Assembly (NCBI GenBank): GCA_016234935.1
Contig: JACRNL010000005.1
Location: 62,001 to 126,000, forward strand
Direction: 5' to 3'
Source: Deltaproteobacteria bacterium
GTDB taxonomy: Bacteria > Desulfobacterota > GWC2-55-46
DNA: 64,000 nt
A program made the translations under genes and the position numbers. How positions within the stretch are numbered: the first letter of the stretch is position 1; each line of letters opens with the position of its first letter. Under the pieces are notes generated by a model. That model was not told where the DNA came from and made no database searches. It saw only the letters and a list, made by a program, of their open reading frames with translations. This document shows, one piece after another, positions 13,436-62,712 of the stretch.

Positions 13436-13462
13436 CCCCCGCTTCAAGCACGCGAGGGCAAG
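13436..13462 (-). repeat. Family A 27-bp hairpin (intergenic)
   Basis: Inverse orientation: CCCCCGC, TTCAAGCAC, GCGAGGGCAAG. Lies between the dehydrogenase and epimerase genes. Confidence 0.75.
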
Positions 13463-13481
13463 AAAAAAATAGGTTCAATGC

Positions 13482-32829: not shown

Positions 32830-33629
32830 CAGAAGGCATGATTGACATACACTGCCACATACTCCCCGGCATTGACGACGGCCCGTCCACGATGGAAGAG
32901 TCCGTCGGGATGTGCCGCATCGCGGCCGCCGACGGCATCAAGACAATAGTCGCCACGCCTCACTTTAACCACTCTCTGCGCCTTGTTCATGCCACCGGCA
33001 TATGCCGCCTCGTCCGCGAACTGAACCGTCATTTAACCGACGCGGCCATCCCCCTGACGGTATTGCCGGGCGCCGAGGCGCCGGTTGTCCCTGAGCTGCC
33101 GGAATACCTGGCAAAGGGAGAGGTGCTGACGATAAACGAGTCCAAAAGGTATCTACTCGTCGAATTTCACCCTCAGACCATGCCGCTGAACTGGGATAAG
33201 TTTTTCCTTTCGCTTATGGAAAAAGCCGTCGTTCCCGTTATCGCGCACCCTGAAAGGAACGAATGGTTCAGCCGCAATATTGCCGCCCTTTACGACGCGG
33301 TGAAAAGCGGCGTGCTGGTGCAGATAACCGCCATGAGCATTACCGGACAGTTCGGCGAGGAGGTCAGGGCATTTTCCTCCCGTCTGCTCGAACATAACCT
33401 GGTTCACACAATCGCGACCGACGCTCATTCCGCGTCGCACAGGCCGCCCATCCTGTCCGCCGCCGTCAAAGCCGCATCGGAGATCATCGGCCGGGAGCGC
33501 GCCAGGGAGCTTGTCGGCAAAATACCACACGCCATCACCGAAGGAGCGCCGCTATCCATTCCTGAGCCGGTTAAAGCGCAGATGGAAACAGCCGCGGAAA
33601 AGAAATGGGCGCGCCGGCTCTTCCACTAA
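32826..33629 (+). CDS. CpsB/YwqE-type PHP-domain tyrosine-protein phosphatase
   Basis: 267 aa. Metal-binding PHP motifs: DIHCHILPGIDDG, ATPHFNH, PVIAHPERNEW and ATDAHS. This manganese-dependent family dephosphorylates the BY-kinase tail in capsule systems. It is commonest in Gram-positives but also occurs in exopolysaccharide loci of other phyla. It overlaps the kinase by 4 bp (ATGA), fitting a kinase-phosphatase pair. A start 12 nt downstream (MIDIHCH) is possible. Confidence 0.93.
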   Translation: MTEGMIDIHCHILPGIDDGPSTMEESVGMCRIAAADGIKTIVATPHFNHSLRLVHATGICRLVRELNRHLTDAAIPLTVLPGAEAPVVPELPEYLAKGEVLTINESKRYLLVEFHPQTMPLNWDKFFLSLMEKAVVPVIAHPERNEWFSRNIAALYDAVKSGVLVQITAMSITGQFGEEVRAFSSRLLEHNLVHTIATDAHSASHRPPILSAAVKAASEIIGRERARELVGKIPHAITEGAPLSIPEPVKAQMETAAEKKWARRLFH

Positions 33630-35956
33630 AAGAGAATTTTCCCTGCCCGGGCGCGCGCCTTGAGCTCATAATAGAAAGAGGGCTGCAGGCCCTTTTAATC
33701 CTGACGCCGCTTGCCTTCGGGACGGTTCATAGATGGTCGCAATCGCTGATGGAAGCCGCCGCCTTTACCCTCCTTGGCGCAATGCTTCTAAAAAGGTCCC
33801 TGTGCGGCGGTTCATTAAGACTGCCCAAAAAACTCCTGTTCATCCCTCTTGCGCTTTTTGCGCTACTTGCGGTCATTCAGATACTGCCGCTGCCTGAAAG
33901 CCTCCTCGCATACATATCCCCCGAAACGGCGCAATTTCACCGGACATTTGCCGGCGCAAACTTATCCGGCCCGATGACCATCAGCGTAAATCCCGGGGCC
34001 ACGATTGAAGAACTCCTGAAGTTTCTCGCCTACGCGGCCGTTTTTTTTGTAACGATAGATTACTGCGAGACAACAGAGCACATAAACAGGCTTCTGCGCA
34101 CCGTGGTCTGCATGGGCGCCGGGCTTGTCGTCCTTGCCGTGGCGCAGAAGATGACGTGGAACGGAAGGCTCTACTGGTTTTATCCGCTCGGCAAAAACGT
34201 GCCGCCAAACCATAATATTTGGGGCCCTTACATAAACCGCAACCACTTCGCGGGCTACATGGAGCTGGCCGTTCCCATCGCGCTCGGCTGCGCGATATAC
34301 ATGCTTTCCACGATCAACGCCCTTAGCGGAAGTTCATTCCGGAAGAATATCGCAAGGGTGCTCAGCTCAAGAAGGTTTTTTCAGGCGGGAATATTTTTCC
34401 TGGCGGCGCTGATTATGGAAGCCGCTCTTTTTATGACCCTGTCAAGGGGCGGGTTTATCGGCTCCGCGGTTTCCATTGCAATCTTTGGCGCGCTTGCCTA
34501 TGCGAGAAGATCGCTCAGAAAGGCCCTGTGGATAATCGCGGCGCCTGCCGCCGTGATTATCATGATAATCTTCATCGGACTTTTAGCGGACACCGAGCGC
34601 CGTTTCATGACTGCGGCCCCGGATCAGTTCGCAAGGCTCGACATCTGGATAGACTCGCTGAATATCATAAAGGACTATCCTTTTTTCGGGATGGGGCTTG
34701 GCGCCTTTAAAAACGCCTTTATGAGCTATCAGACCAAGTGGTCCCTCATATACTTCGAACACGCCGAGAGCGACTACGTGGAGCTGGTCACGGAGACAGG
34801 CTTGGTGGGCCTGCTGATTGCGGCCTTGATGACGGCCGCGTTCTTTTATCCGGTCTTGTCCGCATGGAGACGGCAATCCGGCTGGTACGCCAAGTGCATC
34901 GGGGCAGGCGGTCTTTCGGCCCTGTCCGCCCTGTTCGTGCACGGCTTTACCGATTTTAACCTGCGCATCCCCGCCAACGCGCTTACCTTCACGGTAATCG
35001 CGGCGGCCACATATGCCGCCGTCCTGACCCTCGCTTCAGGCACGCGAGGGCAGGCGGCTGCGCGGCACAAAGTCCCGGCCGCGACGCCCGCTCCGGCCGG
35101 AATGCCCGCCAAGAAGCCCATTGGCCGGCGGCGCGCGGCGCTGACGGCGTTGACAGTGATATGCACCCTGGGGCTTGTCTACCTGCCTGTTAAGGGACTC
35201 CTTGCCGAACATTACCACGCAAAGGCTTACAACATACTCGACGACAAGACGACCGGACAAATGGACATAAAGGGCGTCTCAAAGGAGACTTTGCCGGATT
35301 ATGCCGCCGCGATACGCAGCCTTGAAACCGCGATAGCGCTGTCGCCGTCAAGGGCAGACTATTATAAAGACCTCTCAAGCCTTCAAGCCATGCTCGCCGC
35401 CCAAGCGGACGCGATGGAATCCGCAGGCGCGCGGATTGACGGCGCCGGCCTGTCGCGGCCGGACTCTTATAAGAAGGCCATCGCTTACATGAAAGAGGCC
35501 ATACGCATGGAGCCTTCTAACCCGGACTATCACTTTTCACTTGGCAAGCTCTACGCCGAAACCGGGTCATCCGCAGACCTTTCAGACGGGGAATTCAAGG
35601 CGGCCCTTGCCGCGTATCCCGTAAACGCCCCTCTGAGGTTTGCCGCGGCCATGCATTATCTTCTCGGCAACAGGCCCGAAGACGCCATAAAAGAAGCGCG
35701 GATATTGGCTGAAATAGACGACAGTTACGTTATAGGCGATCCCGAGAAAAGGGCCTTTGAGATGGAGACAAACGCGCTCGGATACCGCGCAAGGCTTTCC
35801 CAAAGCTTTCTCGCGATGGCCTTTGAAATCGTCTGGAGGGCTTCAAATAAGGATTTAACCGTTGTCAAGGCTATTATCCCCGCCCCTGACACGCACCCTC
35901 AGGCTGACGACGTCTTTCAGATTTTTCTGGAGGCAAAGGGTCTGGACGATAGATAA
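33605..35956 (+). CDS. Wzy_C (O-antigen ligase-family) membrane protein with C-terminal TPR domain
   Basis: 783 aa. About 12 hydrophobic segments in residues 15-540, the periplasmic-loop motifs N-R-N-H-F-A-G-Y and L-S-R-G-G-F, and FFGMGLGAFKNAF. A TPR-like C-terminal domain (~560-780) includes KEAIRMEPSNPDYHFSLGKL. Such ligases attach glycans to lipids or proteins, or polymerise. It is the second Wzy-like protein in the locus. Residues ~475-483 (LASGTRGQ), in the linker between membrane and TPR domains, come from an in-frame family-A hairpin. Start overlaps the phosphatase. Confidence 0.85.
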   Translation: MGAPALPLKENFPCPGARLELIIERGLQALLILTPLAFGTVHRWSQSLMEAAAFTLLGAMLLKRSLCGGSLRLPKKLLFIPLALFALLAVIQILPLPESLLAYISPETAQFHRTFAGANLSGPMTISVNPGATIEELLKFLAYAAVFFVTIDYCETTEHINRLLRTVVCMGAGLVVLAVAQKMTWNGRLYWFYPLGKNVPPNHNIWGPYINRNHFAGYMELAVPIALGCAIYMLSTINALSGSSFRKNIARVLSSRRFFQAGIFFLAALIMEAALFMTLSRGGFIGSAVSIAIFGALAYARRSLRKALWIIAAPAAVIIMIIFIGLLADTERRFMTAAPDQFARLDIWIDSLNIIKDYPFFGMGLGAFKNAFMSYQTKWSLIYFEHAESDYVELVTETGLVGLLIAALMTAAFFYPVLSAWRRQSGWYAKCIGAGGLSALSALFVHGFTDFNLRIPANALTFTVIAAATYAAVLTLASGTRGQAAARHKVPAATPAPAGMPAKKPIGRRRAALTALTVICTLGLVYLPVKGLLAEHYHAKAYNILDDKTTGQMDIKGVSKETLPDYAAAIRSLETAIALSPSRADYYKDLSSLQAMLAAQADAMESAGARIDGAGLSRPDSYKKAIAYMKEAIRMEPSNPDYHFSLGKLYAETGSSADLSDGEFKAALAAYPVNAPLRFAAAMHYLLGNRPEDAIKEARILAEIDDSYVIGDPEKRAFEMETNALGYRARLSQSFLAMAFEIVWRASNKDLTVVKAIIPAPDTHPQADDVFQIFLEAKGLDDR
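35028..35054 (-). repeat. Family A hairpin inside the Wzy-TPR gene
   Basis: CCCTCGC, TTCAGGCAC, GCGAGGGCAGG on the plus strand. Read in the gene as LASGTRGQA. 27 bp, frame kept. Confidence 0.85.
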
Positions 35957-35987
35957 GGCAAACTGTGCTTTTTTCTCCTCCCCCTTG

Positions 35988-36014
35988 CCTGCCCTCGCGT
36001 ATTTAAAGCGGGGG
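35988..36014 (+). repeat. Family A hairpin (intergenic)
   Basis: CCTGCCCTCGC, GTATTTAAA, GCGGGGG. Confidence 0.8.
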
Positions 36015-36051
36015 ACGGGGGAGCAACTGTGTTGTCAAGAGGCATATATCG

Positions 36052-36156
36052 TAGTGCGAGGCTTCAGCCTCGCTGTTTTTGCCGCATCCTTGCTTGATTG
36101 CAACAAGCGAGACTAAAGGCCTGCCCTCGCATGTCTAAAGCGGGGGTCTCGCACTA
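36052..36156. repeat. Family E element, occupied copy
   Basis: Ends TAGTGCGAG / CTCGCACTA. Homologous to 37885-37960 but longer by 28 bp because of a family-A unit at 36119-36146. Confidence 0.85.
36120..36146 (+). repeat. Family A hairpin nested in family E
   Basis: Splits GAGACTAAAG from TCTCGCACTA; the unsplit sequence is at 37941-37960. Arms CCTGCCCTCGC and GCGGGGG. Confidence 0.92.
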
Positions 36157-36172: not shown

Positions 36173-36197
36173 TCCCCCCTCAGGGGGCTGCCCCCCC
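36173..36197. repeat. Family B palindrome (intergenic)
   Basis: CCCCCCTCAGGGGG followed by CTGCCCCCC, abutting family F. Confidence 0.65.
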
Positions 36198-36277
36198 CTC
36201 ACCCTACCCTCTCCCGCGAGGGGAGAGGGGAAAAAAAGATTTAAAAATTACGCAATATGGCACAGTCTAACATACAA
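36192..36277. repeat. Family F dispersed repeat, copy 2 (86 bp)
   Basis: Near-identical to 10641-10726, same orientation, also abutted by family B. Confidence 0.75.
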
Positions 36278-37147: not shown

Positions 37148-37258
37148 TTGTCTGTCATCCCCGAGTGTCCCTATCGGGGATATGGTCTTGATTTTCAAAT
37201 TAGATGCTTTGATGCCCCTACTGGATTCCCGATAAAAGTCCTCGGGAATGACAGACAA
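37148..37258. repeat. Family D element, empty copy (111 bp)
   Basis: Outer inverted repeats TTGTCTGTCAT / ATGACAGACAA; inner CCCCGA...TATCGGGGA and CCCGATAAAAGTCCTCGGG. The uninterrupted relative of 42272-42386. Confidence 0.8.
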
Positions 37259-37884: not shown

Positions 37885-37960
37885 TAGTGCGAGGCTTCAG
37901 CCTCACAGTCTTGCAGCGCCCTTGCCTGATTGCATCAAGCGAGACTAAAGTCTCGCACTA
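37885..37960. repeat. Family E element, empty copy
   Basis: TAGTGCGAG...CTCGCACTA, 76 bp, containing GAGACTAAAGTCTC, the uninterrupted site for the family-A insertion seen at 36119. Confidence 0.85.
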
Positions 37961-42271: not shown

Positions 42272-42386
42272 GTCATCCCCGAATACTTCTATCGGGGATC
42301 TATTCTTTAGATGCTTTGATGCCCCTACCGGATTTTCGATAAAAGTCCTCCCCCGCTTAAAACGCGCGAGGGGGGGCGGGAATGAC
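42272..42386. repeat. Family D element, occupied copy
   Basis: GTCATCCCCGA...GGGAATGAC with TTTAGATGCTTTGATGCCCC inside, as in 37148-37258, but with 27 extra bp (42351-42377) after AAAAGTCCTC. Confidence 0.85.
42351..42377 (-). repeat. Family A hairpin nested in family D
   Basis: CCCCGC, TTAAAACGC, GCGAGGGGGGGC, placed exactly between GTCCTC and GGGAATGAC, which are adjacent at 37238-37252. Confidence 0.88.
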
Positions 42387-51313: not shown

Positions 51314-54300
51314 CTACTCCGCATCAGCCTCGGCCTGCTCAAGCGTCCTGATGTAAATGTCCCTTACCTTATCGGAAAAATTTTTATAATCTTCAAGAAG
51401 CCTTCCGGCGGCGTCTTCGCCGGCGTATCCGGCCCTCTTCGCAAGGGACGATATCCCGGCCGGATCCGTGTACAGATAGCCTTCCGGCCTATCATGCACT
51501 ATCCTGAGCCTTGTTTCCAGAAGTCTGTAAAAAACGTACGCGTCCTTCAAGACCGCGTAGTCTCCGGGGCTTATTATCCCCTCCCCGCGCAGCCTTGCGA
51601 GGGCCTTTGACGTATATTGCGTGCGCAGGCCCGCGCGGCGCCCGTGCAAAAGCTGAAGGGCCTGCGTAAGGAACTCGATATCAACGGCGGCGCCCCTGCC
51701 TGTTTTTACATTATATCTGGTCCTGTCCTCTTTGGCAATTTCAGTCTCCATCCTTGAACGGATGCGGAGCATCTCCCTGACATCGTCTTTTCTCAGAGGA
51801 CGCGCATAGAGCGCTTCCCCAAGCTCCTTCAAGACCTCCTCCCCGAAGGCGGCGTCCCCGGCTACGCTTCGCGCCTTTATAAGGGCCTGCCTTTCCCAGA
51901 TTGACGTGCCGCCCATGTGGTATTTAATCAAGGCCGGACGCGCAGCCACGAGCGGCCCGGATGAACCTGAAGGCCGGAGGCGCGTGTCCACGCTGAACAA
52001 AGAGCCCTCCTTCGTGCGGAGCGTCAGGACGCTTATTATCCTCTGGCCGAGCTTGACGAAGAATTCGTGGCTTGAAATGGGCCTGGCACCGTCCGTCCTG
52101 CTGTCAGCGTCCCCGCCGGAATACACGAAGATAACGTCAAGGTCTGATCCATAAATCAGCTCCCTGCCGCCGAGCTTGCCCATGCCTATGACGGCAAACC
52201 TCGCGTCCGCCGGAGGCGGCAGGCCGTAGGTCTTTTTAAGCTCGCCGAGGGCAAGCTCATAGGCGGCCTCCAGCGCGGCCTCGGCCAGAAAGGTCATCTG
52301 CATGGAGACCTGATGGGCCGTAAGGGAGCCGAATACGTCGTTAACGCCTATCCTCAAGACCTCCTGATTCCTGAGCTCGCGCATGGAGCCGAGTTTTTCC
52401 TCATAGTCCTTTGCAGCGCTGTTTGCCTCGTCAAGGAACTCGCGGAAGAACGCCGCCTTTGTCTTATACGGCACGCTAAGCTCCTTTGAAAGGAGCATAT
52501 CGAGGCTTTCCGGACGCTCGATAATGCCCCTTGAAAGAAACGCGCTTGAGCCGAAAAGCGTTATGAGCTTATCGAGCGCCGCAGGGTTCTCGCCAAGCAG
52601 GGAGTAAAACAAAGACCGCGGCCCAACGGCGGAGATGAACCTCTCTATGTGCGCAAGCGCCATGTCCGGGTCGGGAGACGCCGCGGCGCGGGCAATGAAT
52701 GCCGGCAGGAGCCTTTCAAGCCGCATCTGCCCCTTTGAGCCGATGCGCATACGGGCCGGCGCGTCTTTAAGCAGGCAGAGGTTCTTATAGGCCGCGGACG
52801 CGTCCTTGAACCCAAGCGCCTGAAGGCGGGCATTTGCGTCATCTTCCGTAATGCCTGCCCCCGCGTGTCTAAAGCGGGGGTCGGAAAAAAGTATCCGTAT
52901 CTCATCTGGAACTTCAGGCGGCCCTTCTTCGGATTTGTAAAACAGCGACCTGTAGACCTCGTGCACGGCGCCGGTCATGCCGTCGTACTCCTCTTGAAAG
53001 GCGTCCACTGCCGATTTGCCGGGCGCGTCCTTAAACCCCATCATGCGCGCAAGGCGGCGAAGCTCCGCGGCGTGCTTTGGCACTGCCTGCGACTGAGCGC
53101 CCTCGACTATCTGTATCCTGTGCTCAAGGCGTCTTAAAAAGACGTAACCGTCGCGGAAGGTGGCGGCAGACAAATGATTAAGCAGCCCCTTTTCCCTTAA
53201 CTTCTCTATGGCTTGCAGGGTGTTTTTATCCCTCACCCCCGCGTCTTTGCCGCCGTGTATGAGCTGAAGGGCCTGGCAGAAGAACTCTATCTCCCGTATG
53301 CCGCCCCTGCCGAGCTTCACGTCAACGGCATCCGTGCTTCTCCTTAAAAGGCCGACGTCTATCTTCTCCTTCATGGCTTTTATCTCTTCGATAGCCGTAA
53401 AGTCCAGATGCCGCCTGAAGACAAAGGGGCGTATCATCTCAAGGAAATCCGCGCCCGTTTTTTTATCGCCGGCGACGGGCCTTGCCTTTATCATGGCCGC
53501 CCTCTCCCAGGGCTGGCCCCAGGACTCGTAGTAAAGCTCCGCGCTGTAAATGGAGCTTGCCATCTCCCCGCCCCTGCCCTCCGGACGCAGGTCAAGGTCA
53601 CACCTAAAGACAAAGCCGTCTTCGGTGACCGCCGAGATGAGCTTGGTTATCAAGACCGACGCCCTGACAAAAAATGCGTGGTTGCTTATGCGGGAAGAAT
53701 CCTTGCCGTCAACGCCGGCTGTCTCGCCGTTTGAAGATGAATAGACAAAGATGACGTCGATATCCGATGAAAAGTTCAGTTCCCTTCCGCCGAGCTTGCC
53801 CATGCCGATGACGGCCAGTCCCGCCTCCTGGCCGGTCCCGGCGTCCACGGGCGCGCCGCAGCTCTTCTTAAGGTGTTCAATGGAAAAGGCGAGCGCGGCG
53901 TCAAGCGCGGCGGATGCCAGATCAGAGAGCTCCGCCGTCACCTCCTCCACGGGGGAAAGGTTTAGAAGGTCCCTGCTCCCGATGCGCAGGAACTCCCTTT
54001 GCTTGAAGAGCCGCAGCGCCCTTGCCATGCCGTCGAAGGTTTCGACGCCTGTTCTGTTTTTTTCAAGCTCGGATAAAAAGAGCGCGGCGTCTTTGGTCTC
54101 AAAAAGGCCGCGCCCCATGAAAAGCCATTCGAAGTTGGCAGGGTCTTTTGCAAGGATGTTTGAGAGAAATGGCGACGAACCGGCAATGGTTATCAGCCGC
54201 TGAAGGTTTTCCGGCGCTTCCAGAAAATGCCCGAGCGTCTCTTCGGGCAGATCTTTTACGATGTTCTCAAGGTTATTGAGCGCGCCGTCCGGCGAAGGGG

Positions 54301-54475
54301 CGAGCGAGGCAAGGCCTGCGACCGAGCCGATATGCGGCGCAAAGGGTTTTATCCCGGAGATGATCCCGATGTTTTTAAGCGCGGCCTTAGTGTCTGAAAA
54401 ACCGAGGGAGCGCAGCATTTCCTCGGATGCAGCCGCATCTGCCGGAGGCCCGGCCCCATTTGGCGGATTATCCAT
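51314..54475 (-). CDS. glnE: Bifunctional glutamine synthetase adenylyltransferase/deadenylase
   Basis: 1053 aa, full length. Two nucleotidyltransferase domains, each with the sequence IGMGKLGGREL and an active-site acid pair (FSSDIDVIFVYSS near 240; YGSDLDVIFVYSG near 775). The N-terminal domain removes AMP, the C-terminal adds AMP to glutamine synthetase in response to PII. Residues ~532-541 (DPRFRHAGAG) between the two halves derive from an in-frame family-A hairpin at 52854-52880. Co-directional with the DUF4388 gene 3 bp downstream. Confidence 0.96.
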   Translation of the reverse strand: MDNPPNGAGPPADAAASEEMLRSLGFSDTKAALKNIGIISGIKPFAPHIGSVAGLASLAPSPDGALNNLENIVKDLPEETLGHFLEAPENLQRLITIAGSSPFLSNILAKDPANFEWLFMGRGLFETKDAALFLSELEKNRTGVETFDGMARALRLFKQREFLRIGSRDLLNLSPVEEVTAELSDLASAALDAALAFSIEHLKKSCGAPVDAGTGQEAGLAVIGMGKLGGRELNFSSDIDVIFVYSSSNGETAGVDGKDSSRISNHAFFVRASVLITKLISAVTEDGFVFRCDLDLRPEGRGGEMASSIYSAELYYESWGQPWERAAMIKARPVAGDKKTGADFLEMIRPFVFRRHLDFTAIEEIKAMKEKIDVGLLRRSTDAVDVKLGRGGIREIEFFCQALQLIHGGKDAGVRDKNTLQAIEKLREKGLLNHLSAATFRDGYVFLRRLEHRIQIVEGAQSQAVPKHAAELRRLARMMGFKDAPGKSAVDAFQEEYDGMTGAVHEVYRSLFYKSEEGPPEVPDEIRILFSDPRFRHAGAGITEDDANARLQALGFKDASAAYKNLCLLKDAPARMRIGSKGQMRLERLLPAFIARAAASPDPDMALAHIERFISAVGPRSLFYSLLGENPAALDKLITLFGSSAFLSRGIIERPESLDMLLSKELSVPYKTKAAFFREFLDEANSAAKDYEEKLGSMRELRNQEVLRIGVNDVFGSLTAHQVSMQMTFLAEAALEAAYELALGELKKTYGLPPPADARFAVIGMGKLGGRELIYGSDLDVIFVYSGGDADSRTDGARPISSHEFFVKLGQRIISVLTLRTKEGSLFSVDTRLRPSGSSGPLVAARPALIKYHMGGTSIWERQALIKARSVAGDAAFGEEVLKELGEALYARPLRKDDVREMLRIRSRMETEIAKEDRTRYNVKTGRGAAVDIEFLTQALQLLHGRRAGLRTQYTSKALARLRGEGIISPGDYAVLKDAYVFYRLLETRLRIVHDRPEGYLYTDPAGISSLAKRAGYAGEDAAGRLLEDYKNFSDKVRDIYIRTLEQAEADAE
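52854..52880 (+). repeat. Family A hairpin inside glnE
   Basis: CCTGCCCCCGC, GTGTCTAAA, GCGGGGG. The gene reads the opposite strand as PRFRHAGAG. Confidence 0.88.
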
Positions 54476-54533
54476 ACTGAATTTATATATAATTTAAGGG
54501 GAAAACGCAACAGGAGGTAAAAAGGCGGCATCT

Positions 54534-59407: not shown

Positions 59408-59422
59408 ATTCTCTAATCTCCT

Positions 59423-59449
59423 CCTGCCCTCGCGTGTCTGAAGCGGGGG
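59423..59449 (+). repeat. Family A hairpin upstream of the Cys-rich gene
   Basis: CCTGCCCTCGC, GTGTCTGAA, GCGGGGG. Confidence 0.85.
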
Positions 59450-60467: not shown

Positions 60468-62024
60468 ATGGAACCCAAAAAAACCGGCTCCTGCCCTCGC
60501 GTGTCTAAAGCGGGGGTTGGCGTAAAAACAGTCATAATAATCGCCGTCATTTCCGTCCTGGCGGGGATATTATTAACCGCGAAGCTCGACATGACAAACC
60601 CCGGCGCGGCGCAGAGTTTCTGGAAGGAATCAGGGGAAGGCGTCCCGCCCCAGGCAAGCATCAGGCCGGACAGCTTCGTTGATATCGCGAAAAGGCTTTC
60701 CCCCTCGGTCGTGAACATCTCCACGACCCAGACAATAAAAGAGCGTCCCATATTCCCGTTCCCTGAATTCAGAGGCCCGTTCGGCGGGCAGGATGACTTC
60801 TTCGGGGACGACTTCAATAAATTTTTCAATAACGACCAGCAACCGCTGCCGCCCAGAGAGATGAAGCGGCAGTCCCTCGGCTCCGGCTTCATCATCAACA
60901 AGGACGGCTACATCCTCACGAACTTCCACGTCATAGAGAACGCCACCGAGATAATGGTCACGCTCTCCGAGCATAAAAAGGACTACAGGGCAAAGGTCGT
61001 CGGCCAGGACCCGAAGCTCGACATCGCGCTTATAAAGATAAACGCGGACGCCGACCTGCCGGCCGTTACCATCGGCAACTCCGATGATCTTCTGATAGGC
61101 GAGTGGGTCGTCGCCATAGGCAACCCATTCGGCCTCGGCGGCACCGTGACGGCCGGCATAGTCAGCCAGAAGGGGCGCGTCATAGGCGCGGGGCCGTACG
61201 ACAACTTCATACAGACGGACGCGTCCATAAACCCCGGCAACTCCGGCGGCCCGCTCTTTAACATGCGCGGACAGGTCGTGGGGATAAACACCGCGATAGT
61301 AGCCGGCGGCCAGGGCATCGGCTTTGCCACGCCGATAAACATGGTCAAAGACGTCCTCGTCCAGCTCAAGGAAAAGGGCAGGATAACGCGCGGCTGGATA
61401 GGCGTGGGCATACAGGAACTTACGCCGGAGCTTGCAAAATCGTTCGGCCTCAAGGATGCGGAAGGAGCCCTGATATCATCCGTCAATCCGGGAGACCCTG
61501 CGGACGCGGCCGGCCTCAAGCAGGGCGACATAATCATATCCTTTGACAACAAAAAGATAACCGAGATGAACGACCTGCCCCGCATAGTGGCCTCCACGGC
61601 GCCGGGCAAGGGCGTGCCGGTGGTTATCCTGCGCGACGGGCAGGAAAAGACCATCACCGTGAAGGTCGGCGCCAAAAGCGATGAAGAGGCCTTTGCCGAG
61701 GCGGATACGCAATCTGAAAAAGAGCCCAAGCCGGATAAAAGGCTTGGCATATCCGTTCAGTCCATAACGCAGGAAATGGCCAAGAAGTTGGGCCTGCCGG
61801 ACACCGAAGGGGTCGTCATTATGAGCGTCAAGCCGGACAGCCCTGCCGGCCTTGCCACCCTGCGGCGCGGGGACGTCATAAAAGAGGTAAACAGAAGGCC
61901 CGTCAGGAACCTGTCCGAATACAAAAAGGCCATGGCCGCGTTGAATAAAAAAGAGAGCGTCCTGCTGCTCATAAAAAGAGGCAACAGCACCATATATGTG
62001 ATACTGACGGTCAAAGAAAAGTAA
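60468..62024 (+). CDS. degP: Do/DegP-family periplasmic serine protease
   Basis: 518 aa from the ATG at 60468, downstream of AAGGAGG (an upstream in-frame ATG at 60411 lies inside DUF1844). Membrane anchor ~20-37 (TVIIIAVISVLAGILLTA). Trypsin-like domain with triad H154 (TNFHVIE), D185 (KLDIALIKI) and S259 (NPGNSGGPLF), and two PDZ domains (~300-390, ~425-515). It degrades or refolds misfolded envelope proteins. Residues ~8-16 (SCPRVSKAG), before the anchor, are encoded by a family-A hairpin. Confidence 0.95.
   Translation: MEPKKTGSCPRVSKAGVGVKTVIIIAVISVLAGILLTAKLDMTNPGAAQSFWKESGEGVPPQASIRPDSFVDIAKRLSPSVVNISTTQTIKERPIFPFPEFRGPFGGQDDFFGDDFNKFFNNDQQPLPPREMKRQSLGSGFIINKDGYILTNFHVIENATEIMVTLSEHKKDYRAKVVGQDPKLDIALIKINADADLPAVTIGNSDDLLIGEWVVAIGNPFGLGGTVTAGIVSQKGRVIGAGPYDNFIQTDASINPGNSGGPLFNMRGQVVGINTAIVAGGQGIGFATPINMVKDVLVQLKEKGRITRGWIGVGIQELTPELAKSFGLKDAEGALISSVNPGDPADAAGLKQGDIIISFDNKKITEMNDLPRIVASTAPGKGVPVVILRDGQEKTITVKVGAKSDEEAFAEADTQSEKEPKPDKRLGISVQSITQEMAKKLGLPDTEGVVIMSVKPDSPAGLATLRRGDVIKEVNRRPVRNLSEYKKAMAALNKKESVLLLIKRGNSTIYVILTVKEK
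60490..60516 (+). repeat. Family A hairpin inside degP
   Basis: CCTGCCCTCGC, GTGTCTAAA, GCGGGGG, the consensus form. Read as CPRVSKAG. Confidence 0.9.
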
Positions 62025-62043
62025 AATAGCAACGGATGGAATT

Positions 62044-62712
62044 TTGGCAACTTACATTACGGCCCTGACCGGAGCCAGCGGGGCGGTCTACGGCATAAGG
62101 CTCATAAGAGAACTCCTGGCAAGGGGAGATGACGTTGAACTGCTCATCTCCCCTTCCGGTTTTCTGCTCCTTGAGGAGGAACTCGGCCTTTACCTTGAAA
62201 AGCCTGCCCCCGCACGTCTGAAGCGGGGGGGCGATCCTCGGCCTCGGCCTGAGATTGAAAAGGCAGTGCGCGCTTATCTGGAGCGCGCATACGGCGCAGA
62301 GACCAGGCTCAAAGGCTCTTTGCGCTTCACCCCGTCTGACGACATGACGTCAAGGCTTGCAAGCGGCGGCTGTCTCCCGGAGGTCAGGGCTATGATCGTT
62401 TGCCCCTGCTCAATGGGGACTCTGGCGCGCATAAGCGCAGGCATATCGGCAAGCCTCATCGAAAGGGCCGCGGATTGCATGCTCAAGGAGCGCTCCGCGC
62501 TTGTGCTCGTCCCGCGCGAAACGCCGCTCAGCTCGATTCACCTTGAAAATATGCTCAGGCTCTCGCGGGCGGGCGCGGTCATCCTGCCGGCCATGCCGGC
62601 CTTCTACACGCACCCGAAAACAACCGGCGACATGGCCGCATTCATCGCCGGAAAGATACTGGACAGCCTGAAGATAGAAAACAATCTCTATAACAGGTGG
62701 AAAAAGCGGTAA
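62044..62712 (+). CDS. ubiX: Flavin prenyltransferase UbiX
   Basis: 222 aa, TTG start with GGATGGA upstream. ITALTGASGAVYGIRLIREL (FMN site), CPCSMGTLARISAGIS, ERAADCMLKERSALVLVPRETPL and PAMPAFYTHP, the UbiX series. It makes the prenylated FMN used by UbiD decarboxylases. Typical UbiX is ~190-205 aa. The extra length sits at residues ~54-75 between L-Y-L-E-K and the next helix; nine of these residues (PAPARLKRG) are a family-A hairpin. No UbiD is in the window. Confidence 0.92.
   Translation: MATYITALTGASGAVYGIRLIRELLARGDDVELLISPSGFLLLEEELGLYLEKPAPARLKRGGDPRPRPEIEKAVRAYLERAYGAETRLKGSLRFTPSDDMTSRLASGGCLPEVRAMIVCPCSMGTLARISAGISASLIERAADCMLKERSALVLVPRETPLSSIHLENMLRLSRAGAVILPAMPAFYTHPKTTGDMAAFIAGKILDSLKIENNLYNRWKKR
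62203..62229 (+). repeat. Family A hairpin inside ubiX
   Basis: CCTGCCCCCGC, ACGTCTGAA, GCGGGGG. Read as PAPARLKRG. Confidence 0.9.

Follow-up and report, generated by a model that had tools for sequence, protein, structure and literature searches.

A repeat that occurs twice at a spacing of 1.8 kb, once whole and once split by a short hairpin, raises the question of whether the hairpin was inserted as a unit, and by what means. The window (the whole stretch of 64,000 nucleotides, C9:62001-126000) belongs to a genome of 2.15 Mb in 15 contigs that is 100% complete. In it, a block of 28 bp at 36119-36146 interrupts one copy of a host repeat, referred to as family E, while the copy at 37885-37960 is uninterrupted. 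The features concerned are the following.

36119 to 36146, plus strand: the family A element in question; the unit is 36120-36146 (CCTG tag, 7-bp stem, 9-nt loop, stem), with a G before it.
36052 to 36156, plus strand: host repeat E, filled; two inverted GTAG-tagged REP hairpins (36051-36073; 36107-36118/36147-36157), the second of which is split by A.
37885 to 37960, plus strand: host repeat E, empty copy, from sequence comparison.

The filled junction consists of GCGAGACTAAAG, GCCTGCCCTCGCATGTCTAAAGCGGGGG and TCTCGCACTA in succession (36107-36156), and its empty counterpart is GCGAGACTAAAGTCTCGCACTA (37939-37960). Put differently, GCGAGACTAAAGTCTCGC at 37939-37956 recurs at 36107-36152, split by GCCTGCCCTCGCATGTCTAAAGCGGGGG. 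The two copies in the window differ by a further 1-bp indel and about 10 substitutions. The coordinates and sequences that an earlier, sequence-only reading had assigned to the block and to both E copies were confirmed. When the window was searched with the 28-mer block, six matches were obtained at three mismatches or fewer, and none in 100 dinucleotide-preserving shuffles.

Collecting the family A copies across the genome and its relatives, as that reading had proposed, gave about 150 copies here and a near absence from relatives. A pattern search of the genome returned 124-147 copies, and the reversed pattern returned none. In the 380 kb that were read (the genome stretches around A copies plus the window), 147 non-overlapping copies were counted at two mismatches or fewer and 158 at three or fewer; the reversed control gave 0 and 2, respectively. 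The 147 copies fall in 124 distinct flanking contexts, many of which come from shared host repeats, so that the independent insertions number 124 at most. Nine copies were found in the window with a slightly looser consensus (two mismatches or fewer). Among the copies in the window are those below (^ marks the junction).

35987 to 36014, plus strand: second A copy, 3' of the G in a CTCCCCCTTG^ACGGGGGAG-type palindrome that also occurs unfilled elsewhere in the genome.
42350 to 42377, minus strand: diverged A copy within a GTCATTCCC-type palindromic repeat.
59422 to 59449, plus strand: A copy with host base T, by consensus match.
60489 to 60516, plus strand: A copy with host base T, not G, 41 codons into a 552-codon open frame.
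13436 to 13463, minus strand: diverged A copy (TCTTG...), by consensus match.

In a tally of 395 genomes of the phylum at two mismatches or fewer, this genome had 127 copies and the others seven at most; copies were recorded in just four of the 395. By pattern, 0-11 copies occur in the family's other genera. The nearest named relatives by GlnE are uncultured MAGs, mostly filed as Deltaproteobacteria, with an identity of 61% or less. From this disparity in copy number we infer that family A was amplified recently and in this lineage alone. An Rfam search gave a single sub-threshold chance match, away from the element. Viral contigs contained no exact match to the A pattern, and in a plasmid search the best matches covered neighbouring sequence only, A not being included.

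The 147 copies delimit the element. In a DNA fold, positions 6-12 pair with positions 22-28, and the stem co-varies: the pair 6-28 is CG in 141 copies and TA in 4; 9-25 is TG in 105, CG in 37 and TA in 3; 12-22 is CG in 124, AT in 10 and TG in 8. Since position 28 co-varies with position 6, the last base is part of the element. The base before the tag, position 1, is G in 133 copies (90%), T in 10, C in 3 and A in 1; being unpaired and variable, it is most plausibly the host base adjoining the insertion. Nearly all copies have the CCTG tag, and the loop RTGTYTRAA fits most of them. The family A unit is best read as 27 bp, comprising the CCTG tag, a 7-bp stem, a 9-nt loop and a 7-bp stem with a flush 3' end. 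A discrete hairpin unit of 27-28 bp had been described before; the unit stands, but 27 bp preceded by a host G is the better definition.

Filled and empty hosts were counted in the 380 kb of stretches read. The host GCGAGACTAAAG^TCTCGC was filled in 4 cases and empty in 10; the sibling hairpin host CCCCGCAGG^CTTTAAGCGGGG (CCCCGC.G^CTTTAAGCGGGG) was filled in 9 and empty in 20. The corresponding numbers were 3 and 10 for CTCTCCCGCG^AGGGGAGAG, 1 and 7 for CTCCCCCTTG^ACGGGGGAGG (CTCCCCCTTG^A.GGGGGAGG), and 3 and 2 for TGCCAACG^TTTGTATTA, whose three filled copies carry different A alleles. A's own loop, on the reverse strand, served as host in 7 filled cases. In the five hosts compared, the filled form equals the empty form plus 27 bp after a G, except in E, in which an extra G brings the net gain to 28 bp; at CCCCGAATA^G hosts, an extra A stands at the junction. 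The five host repeats agree on the borders of A, no clear target duplication was seen, and insertion occurs in either orientation. Judged from these hosts, the comparison shows repeated, precise insertion of a 27-bp unit 3' of one host base with no clear duplication, which supports the earlier view of the short hairpin as a unit with sharp borders.

It may be noted that the sibling hairpin family, CATGTCCCCGCAGGCTTTAAGCGGGGA, has a CATG tag, T-A as its outermost stem pair and the loop AGGCTTTAA (it occurs, for instance, in the genome stretches L156, L011 and L021). Beside the filled E repeat, at 36186-36236, lies a GC-rich palindrome, CCCTACCCTCTCCCGCGAGGGGAGAGGGG, which is a dispersed family and also an A target; the segment neighbouring it matches many Rhizobium and Azospirillum plasmids. 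At 37148-37258, an inverted TGTCATCCCCGA / GGAATGACAGACAA hairpin pair resembles a CGTC-type REP dimer, and its loop resembles that of family A (GTGTCCCTA).

An ordinary conserved motif, such as a terminator or a protein-binding site, with the filled and empty pair arising by deletion, would agree with the hairpin form of A and with the many copies outside long open frames. The data refute it and leave it next to no probability: exact empty sites exist in at least five unrelated hosts, which also disposes of a deletion origin of the empty site, A copies are nested, insertions of 9 or 18 residues are seen relative to orthologues, and relatives nearly lack the family. Formation of the 76-bp E copy by deletion, which the sequence-only reading had named as fatal to its own claim, was examined and fails, the empty palindrome being present 10 times in the stretches read and the same block occurring in about 120 other contexts.

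About 30 A copies, in both orientations, were found at a G within the loop of either a sibling hairpin or another A; this count, the loop alleles, the G.T asymmetry and the identity chance given below come from a set of 132 copies. The folds of reconstructed empty sites are more stable than those of random G sites (mean -10.3 versus -8.3 kcal/mol, p 3e-5), partly owing to the repeated palindromic hosts. Both the folding of the targets and the nested copies support the earlier suggestion that palindromes, loops included, are favoured insertion sites. A repeated palindrome is not required as a target, since A copies also occur at coding targets. An orientation bias relative to local GC skew, seen in a first, incomplete set (p 0.013), was not significant in the complete set (p 0.064) and was dropped. 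At C12:116833 (L104), several tandem left halves of A are followed by two right halves, an array that suggests that A nested in itself several times and that right halves were lost afterwards.

Template switching at palindromes could yield such sites with no dedicated enzyme, if a fork stalled at one hairpin copied a short stretch of another and switched back. The palindrome enrichment of A targets is in keeping with this mechanism, as are the tandemly repeated 5' halves of some copies (C12:116833) and the absence from the genome of the three mobility-enzyme families searched. However, the same 27-bp borders recur in more than 100 contexts, coding sites included, and donor flanks are not carried along; such exact borders favour an enzyme that recognizes the ends. 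Moreover, machinery common to all relatives would hardly explain a burst in a single genome. We regard template switching as unlikely.

Open frames of 220 codons or more contain 42 A copies at a depth of 30 codons or more, 17 of them on the same strand and 25 on the opposite strand. The 27 bp correspond to nine codons, and common A alleles have no stops in five of the six frames. By NCBIfam names, the genes that carry A include those for GlnE, RecG (two copies), CarB, DnaX, NadE, RimO, CbiD and a UbiX-family enzyme, among others. The relevant features in the window are as follows.

33575 to 35953, plus strand: open frame that includes an IctB-like region and holds the A copy 35028-35055.
35028 to 35055, minus strand: A copy in-frame in a 793-codon open frame, from the sequence.
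51314 to 54493, minus strand: glnE open frame carrying the A copy 52853-52880, by alignment with relatives.
52853 to 52880, plus strand: A copy in-frame in glnE (gene on the minus strand).
62008 to 62709, plus strand: UbiX-family open frame, which holds the A copy 62202-62229.
62202 to 62229, plus strand: A copy in-frame in the ubiX gene, in a length-variable region.

CbiD, in which A is nested in A, has exactly 18 residues more than 14 of 19 relatives. At RecG site 2, a single, exact 9-residue gap was found in 7 of 19 relatives (L178, L180, L183, L186-L189), the rest differing by other lengths; site 1 is a variable loop, where the gap length varies among relatives. In GlnE, 8 residues are missing exactly at the A copy in the seven nearest relatives, one short of 9. 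The A segments of UbiX and CarB are absent from relatives or solved structures, in regions that vary in length or have further extra residues. CarB (L120, carB, C8:37704) exceeds the E. coli enzyme by about 20 residues, more than one A copy, and likely has a second small insertion besides A. A second short palindromic repeat, GGGGTTGAACCCCTTCAAGGGG-like, is apparently in-frame in several proteins, sometimes in tandem (L060, L075, L097; it encodes PLQGAEPLQG, KPLEGVQPPEGV).

The gene copies bear on RNA-mediated copying, in which a hairpin RNA would be integrated and then reverse-transcribed. The copy number of A rises as in copy-and-paste, and wobble is frequent at the A pair 9-25. Copying of this kind is said to have been proposed for cyanobacterial SDRs. 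It was also suspected by the yeast authors for mitochondrial GC42 (PMC4478555). On the other hand, the copies in genes are not biased to the sense strand, and no RVT_1 reverse transcriptase was found in the genome. We consider this route quite improbable. The strand asymmetry of G.T versus A.C mispairs in the A stem is due to the pair T9-G25 alone; when the pair is left out, the counts are 9 and 11.

What, then, does the locus at 36052-36156 record? The A insert is identical in all four filled E repeats, at four loci, and the probability that four random A copies are identical is about 5e-5. Separate insertion at each of the four was therefore judged unlikely; E would have been hit once and then spread in the filled form. 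One loop allele is common to 9 of the 10 inserts in the CCCCGCAG host, and this, together with the identical E inserts, argues that filled composites spread after one insertion. The E pair had been taken to show insertion of the hairpin; the insertion is real, but the repeat at this locus most likely descends from one that was filled beforehand and is not the record of a separate insertion here.

Besides precise insertion, the stretches compared show enrichment at palindromes, in-frame copies in conserved genes and identical filled composites at several loci. On balance, and by a small measure, we think it probable that the 27-bp hairpins of family A are REP-like, non-autonomous mobile elements, moved in trans by a recombinase that reads single-stranded hairpins. 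This recombinase would recognize A when it is folded as a single strand and would paste it much as in HUH/Y1 (IS200/IS605, RAYT) transposition, and the G residues exposed in folded host palindromes would serve as targets. One hit on the E repeat would have been followed by copying, in filled form, to four loci. The lack of a clear duplication, the tagged hairpin and the folded targets fit single-strand, HUH/Y1-like transposition. Y1 transposase (PF01797), RVT_1 reverse transcriptase (PF00078) and PF02371 transposase genes were absent from this 100%-complete genome, and all three were rejected as resident mobilizers; the mobilizing enzyme may have been lost from the genome or may lie outside the families searched. 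Besides the missing mobilizer genes and the non-significant orientation bias relative to GC skew, three observations count against this explanation: A is a lone hairpin without the two ends of IS200/IS605 and REPIN units, its junctions are not always identical (the extra G in E and the extra A at CCCCGAATA^G), and the argument for single-strand polarity comes down to the one pair T9-G25.

As a special case of the trans-acting recombinase, A may be a REP whose cognate Y1 transposase was lost, the copies being fossils. Y1 enzymes recognize single-strand hairpins and make no target duplication, a behaviour that matches A. The architecture of A is REP-like, GTAG-tagged REPs (family E) occur in the same genome, and the genome now has no Y1 gene. 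Yet A has a CCTG tag in place of GTAG or CGTC, it occurs in single units instead of inverted pairs, its many identical copies imply recent activity, and no link between A and a Y1 gene emerged from related genomes. This origin is possible but doubtful. Equally tentative is the suggestion of a third, CCTG-tagged REP-like class, a lone 27-nt hairpin moved by an enzyme that is neither Y1 nor a reverse transcriptase; it would write 9-codon protein modules and nest in its own loop, and perhaps sibling tags and stems share the loop R-N-G-Y-Y-T-N-N-A.

A recent burst with exact empty sites bears on how transposase-less REPs, SDRs and Rickettsia palindromic elements (RPE) move. This genome gives direct access to the borders, the target rule and the protein sites that tolerate A; nested A insertions put events in temporal order, and conserved enzymes carry in-frame copies. 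A candidate mobilizer could be sought by means of genomes with and without the burst.

No published description of family A was found in a limited collection of open-access papers. The small size of the unit, which the sequence-only reading took as unprecedented, is not so, mobile palindromic units of 20-40 bp being already known (REPs, PMC3733652; SDRs). REPs are tagged hairpins of 20-40 bp, the tag being GTAG or CGTC in most of them (Di Nocera et al. 2013, PMC3733652). Like GTAG-tagged REPs, A is a tagged stem-loop within this range and has many copies (27 bp, about 150, with stem co-variation), but it lacks an unpaired GTAG, its tag being CCTG, and the associated RAYT (Y1) gene is missing here (PF01797 absent). 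CGTC REPs have a CGTC (or TGTC, CCTC) tag, AT first stem pairs, a 4-5 nt loop and a CCA tail, and are without a known transposase; some REPs are intragenic, DNA repair genes included, and some families lie within palindromes (PMC3733652). A likewise has no dedicated transposase among the three families searched, and has intragenic copies; it differs by its CCTG tag, CG first stem pairs, conserved 9-nt loop and lack of a 3' unpaired tail. From both kinds of REP it differs by its mostly single units, self-nesting and precise 27-bp empty sites. REPINs consist of two REPs in inverted orientation, occur in genomes that have a RAYT gene, and are thought to be moved by a single-strand transposase (PMC3116915). 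Family E of this genome is of the REPIN/RAYT type; A, too, is a short hairpin, but single and without a Y1 gene in the genome. IS200/IS605-derived miniature elements depend on a Y1 transposase in trans and have two subterminal hairpin ends and a fixed short target; A is not of this kind, being a single hairpin with no PF01797 gene in the genome and only a G as target. Nor is it a MITE of the DDE type, which has terminal inverted repeats and a target duplication, since the 5' CCTG tag of A is unpaired and a clear target duplication is lacking.

The SDRs of Nostoc and relatives, reportedly described by Elhai et al. in 2008, are 21-27 nt long, form hairpins and lie inside mini-transposons and their own copies. 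Passages of PMC3116915 and PMC4390886 cite SDRs as small dispersed repeats, and one in the latter has SDR5 precisely inserted inside HIP1. Compared by description only, A shares with SDRs the 21-27 nt size, the hairpin and the precise insertion into other repeats and itself. The SDR hosts, however, are of a different phylum, and in A the target is a single G, in-frame insertion in genes was shown against orthologues, and no RVT_1 gene is found in the genome. RPE are 105-146 bp long and lie in-frame in genes for conserved proteins (PMC2229807). A shares palindromic in-frame insertion in conserved genes (RecG, GlnE, CbiD), with 27 bp as against 105-146 bp. We know of no self-nesting or host-repeat targeting by RPE. 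Yeast mitochondrial GC clusters are tiny mobile hairpins, of which GC42 has a duplicated AG target (PMC4478555); a passage of PMC7218506 cites ultra-short elements from fungal mitochondria. A is also a tiny, mobile hairpin of many copies, and merging and shuffling are shared, but the GC clusters are organellar and the AG duplication of GC42 has no evident counterpart in A. Our best reading places family A with the REP/SDR kind, as a new variant distinguished by its CCTG tag.
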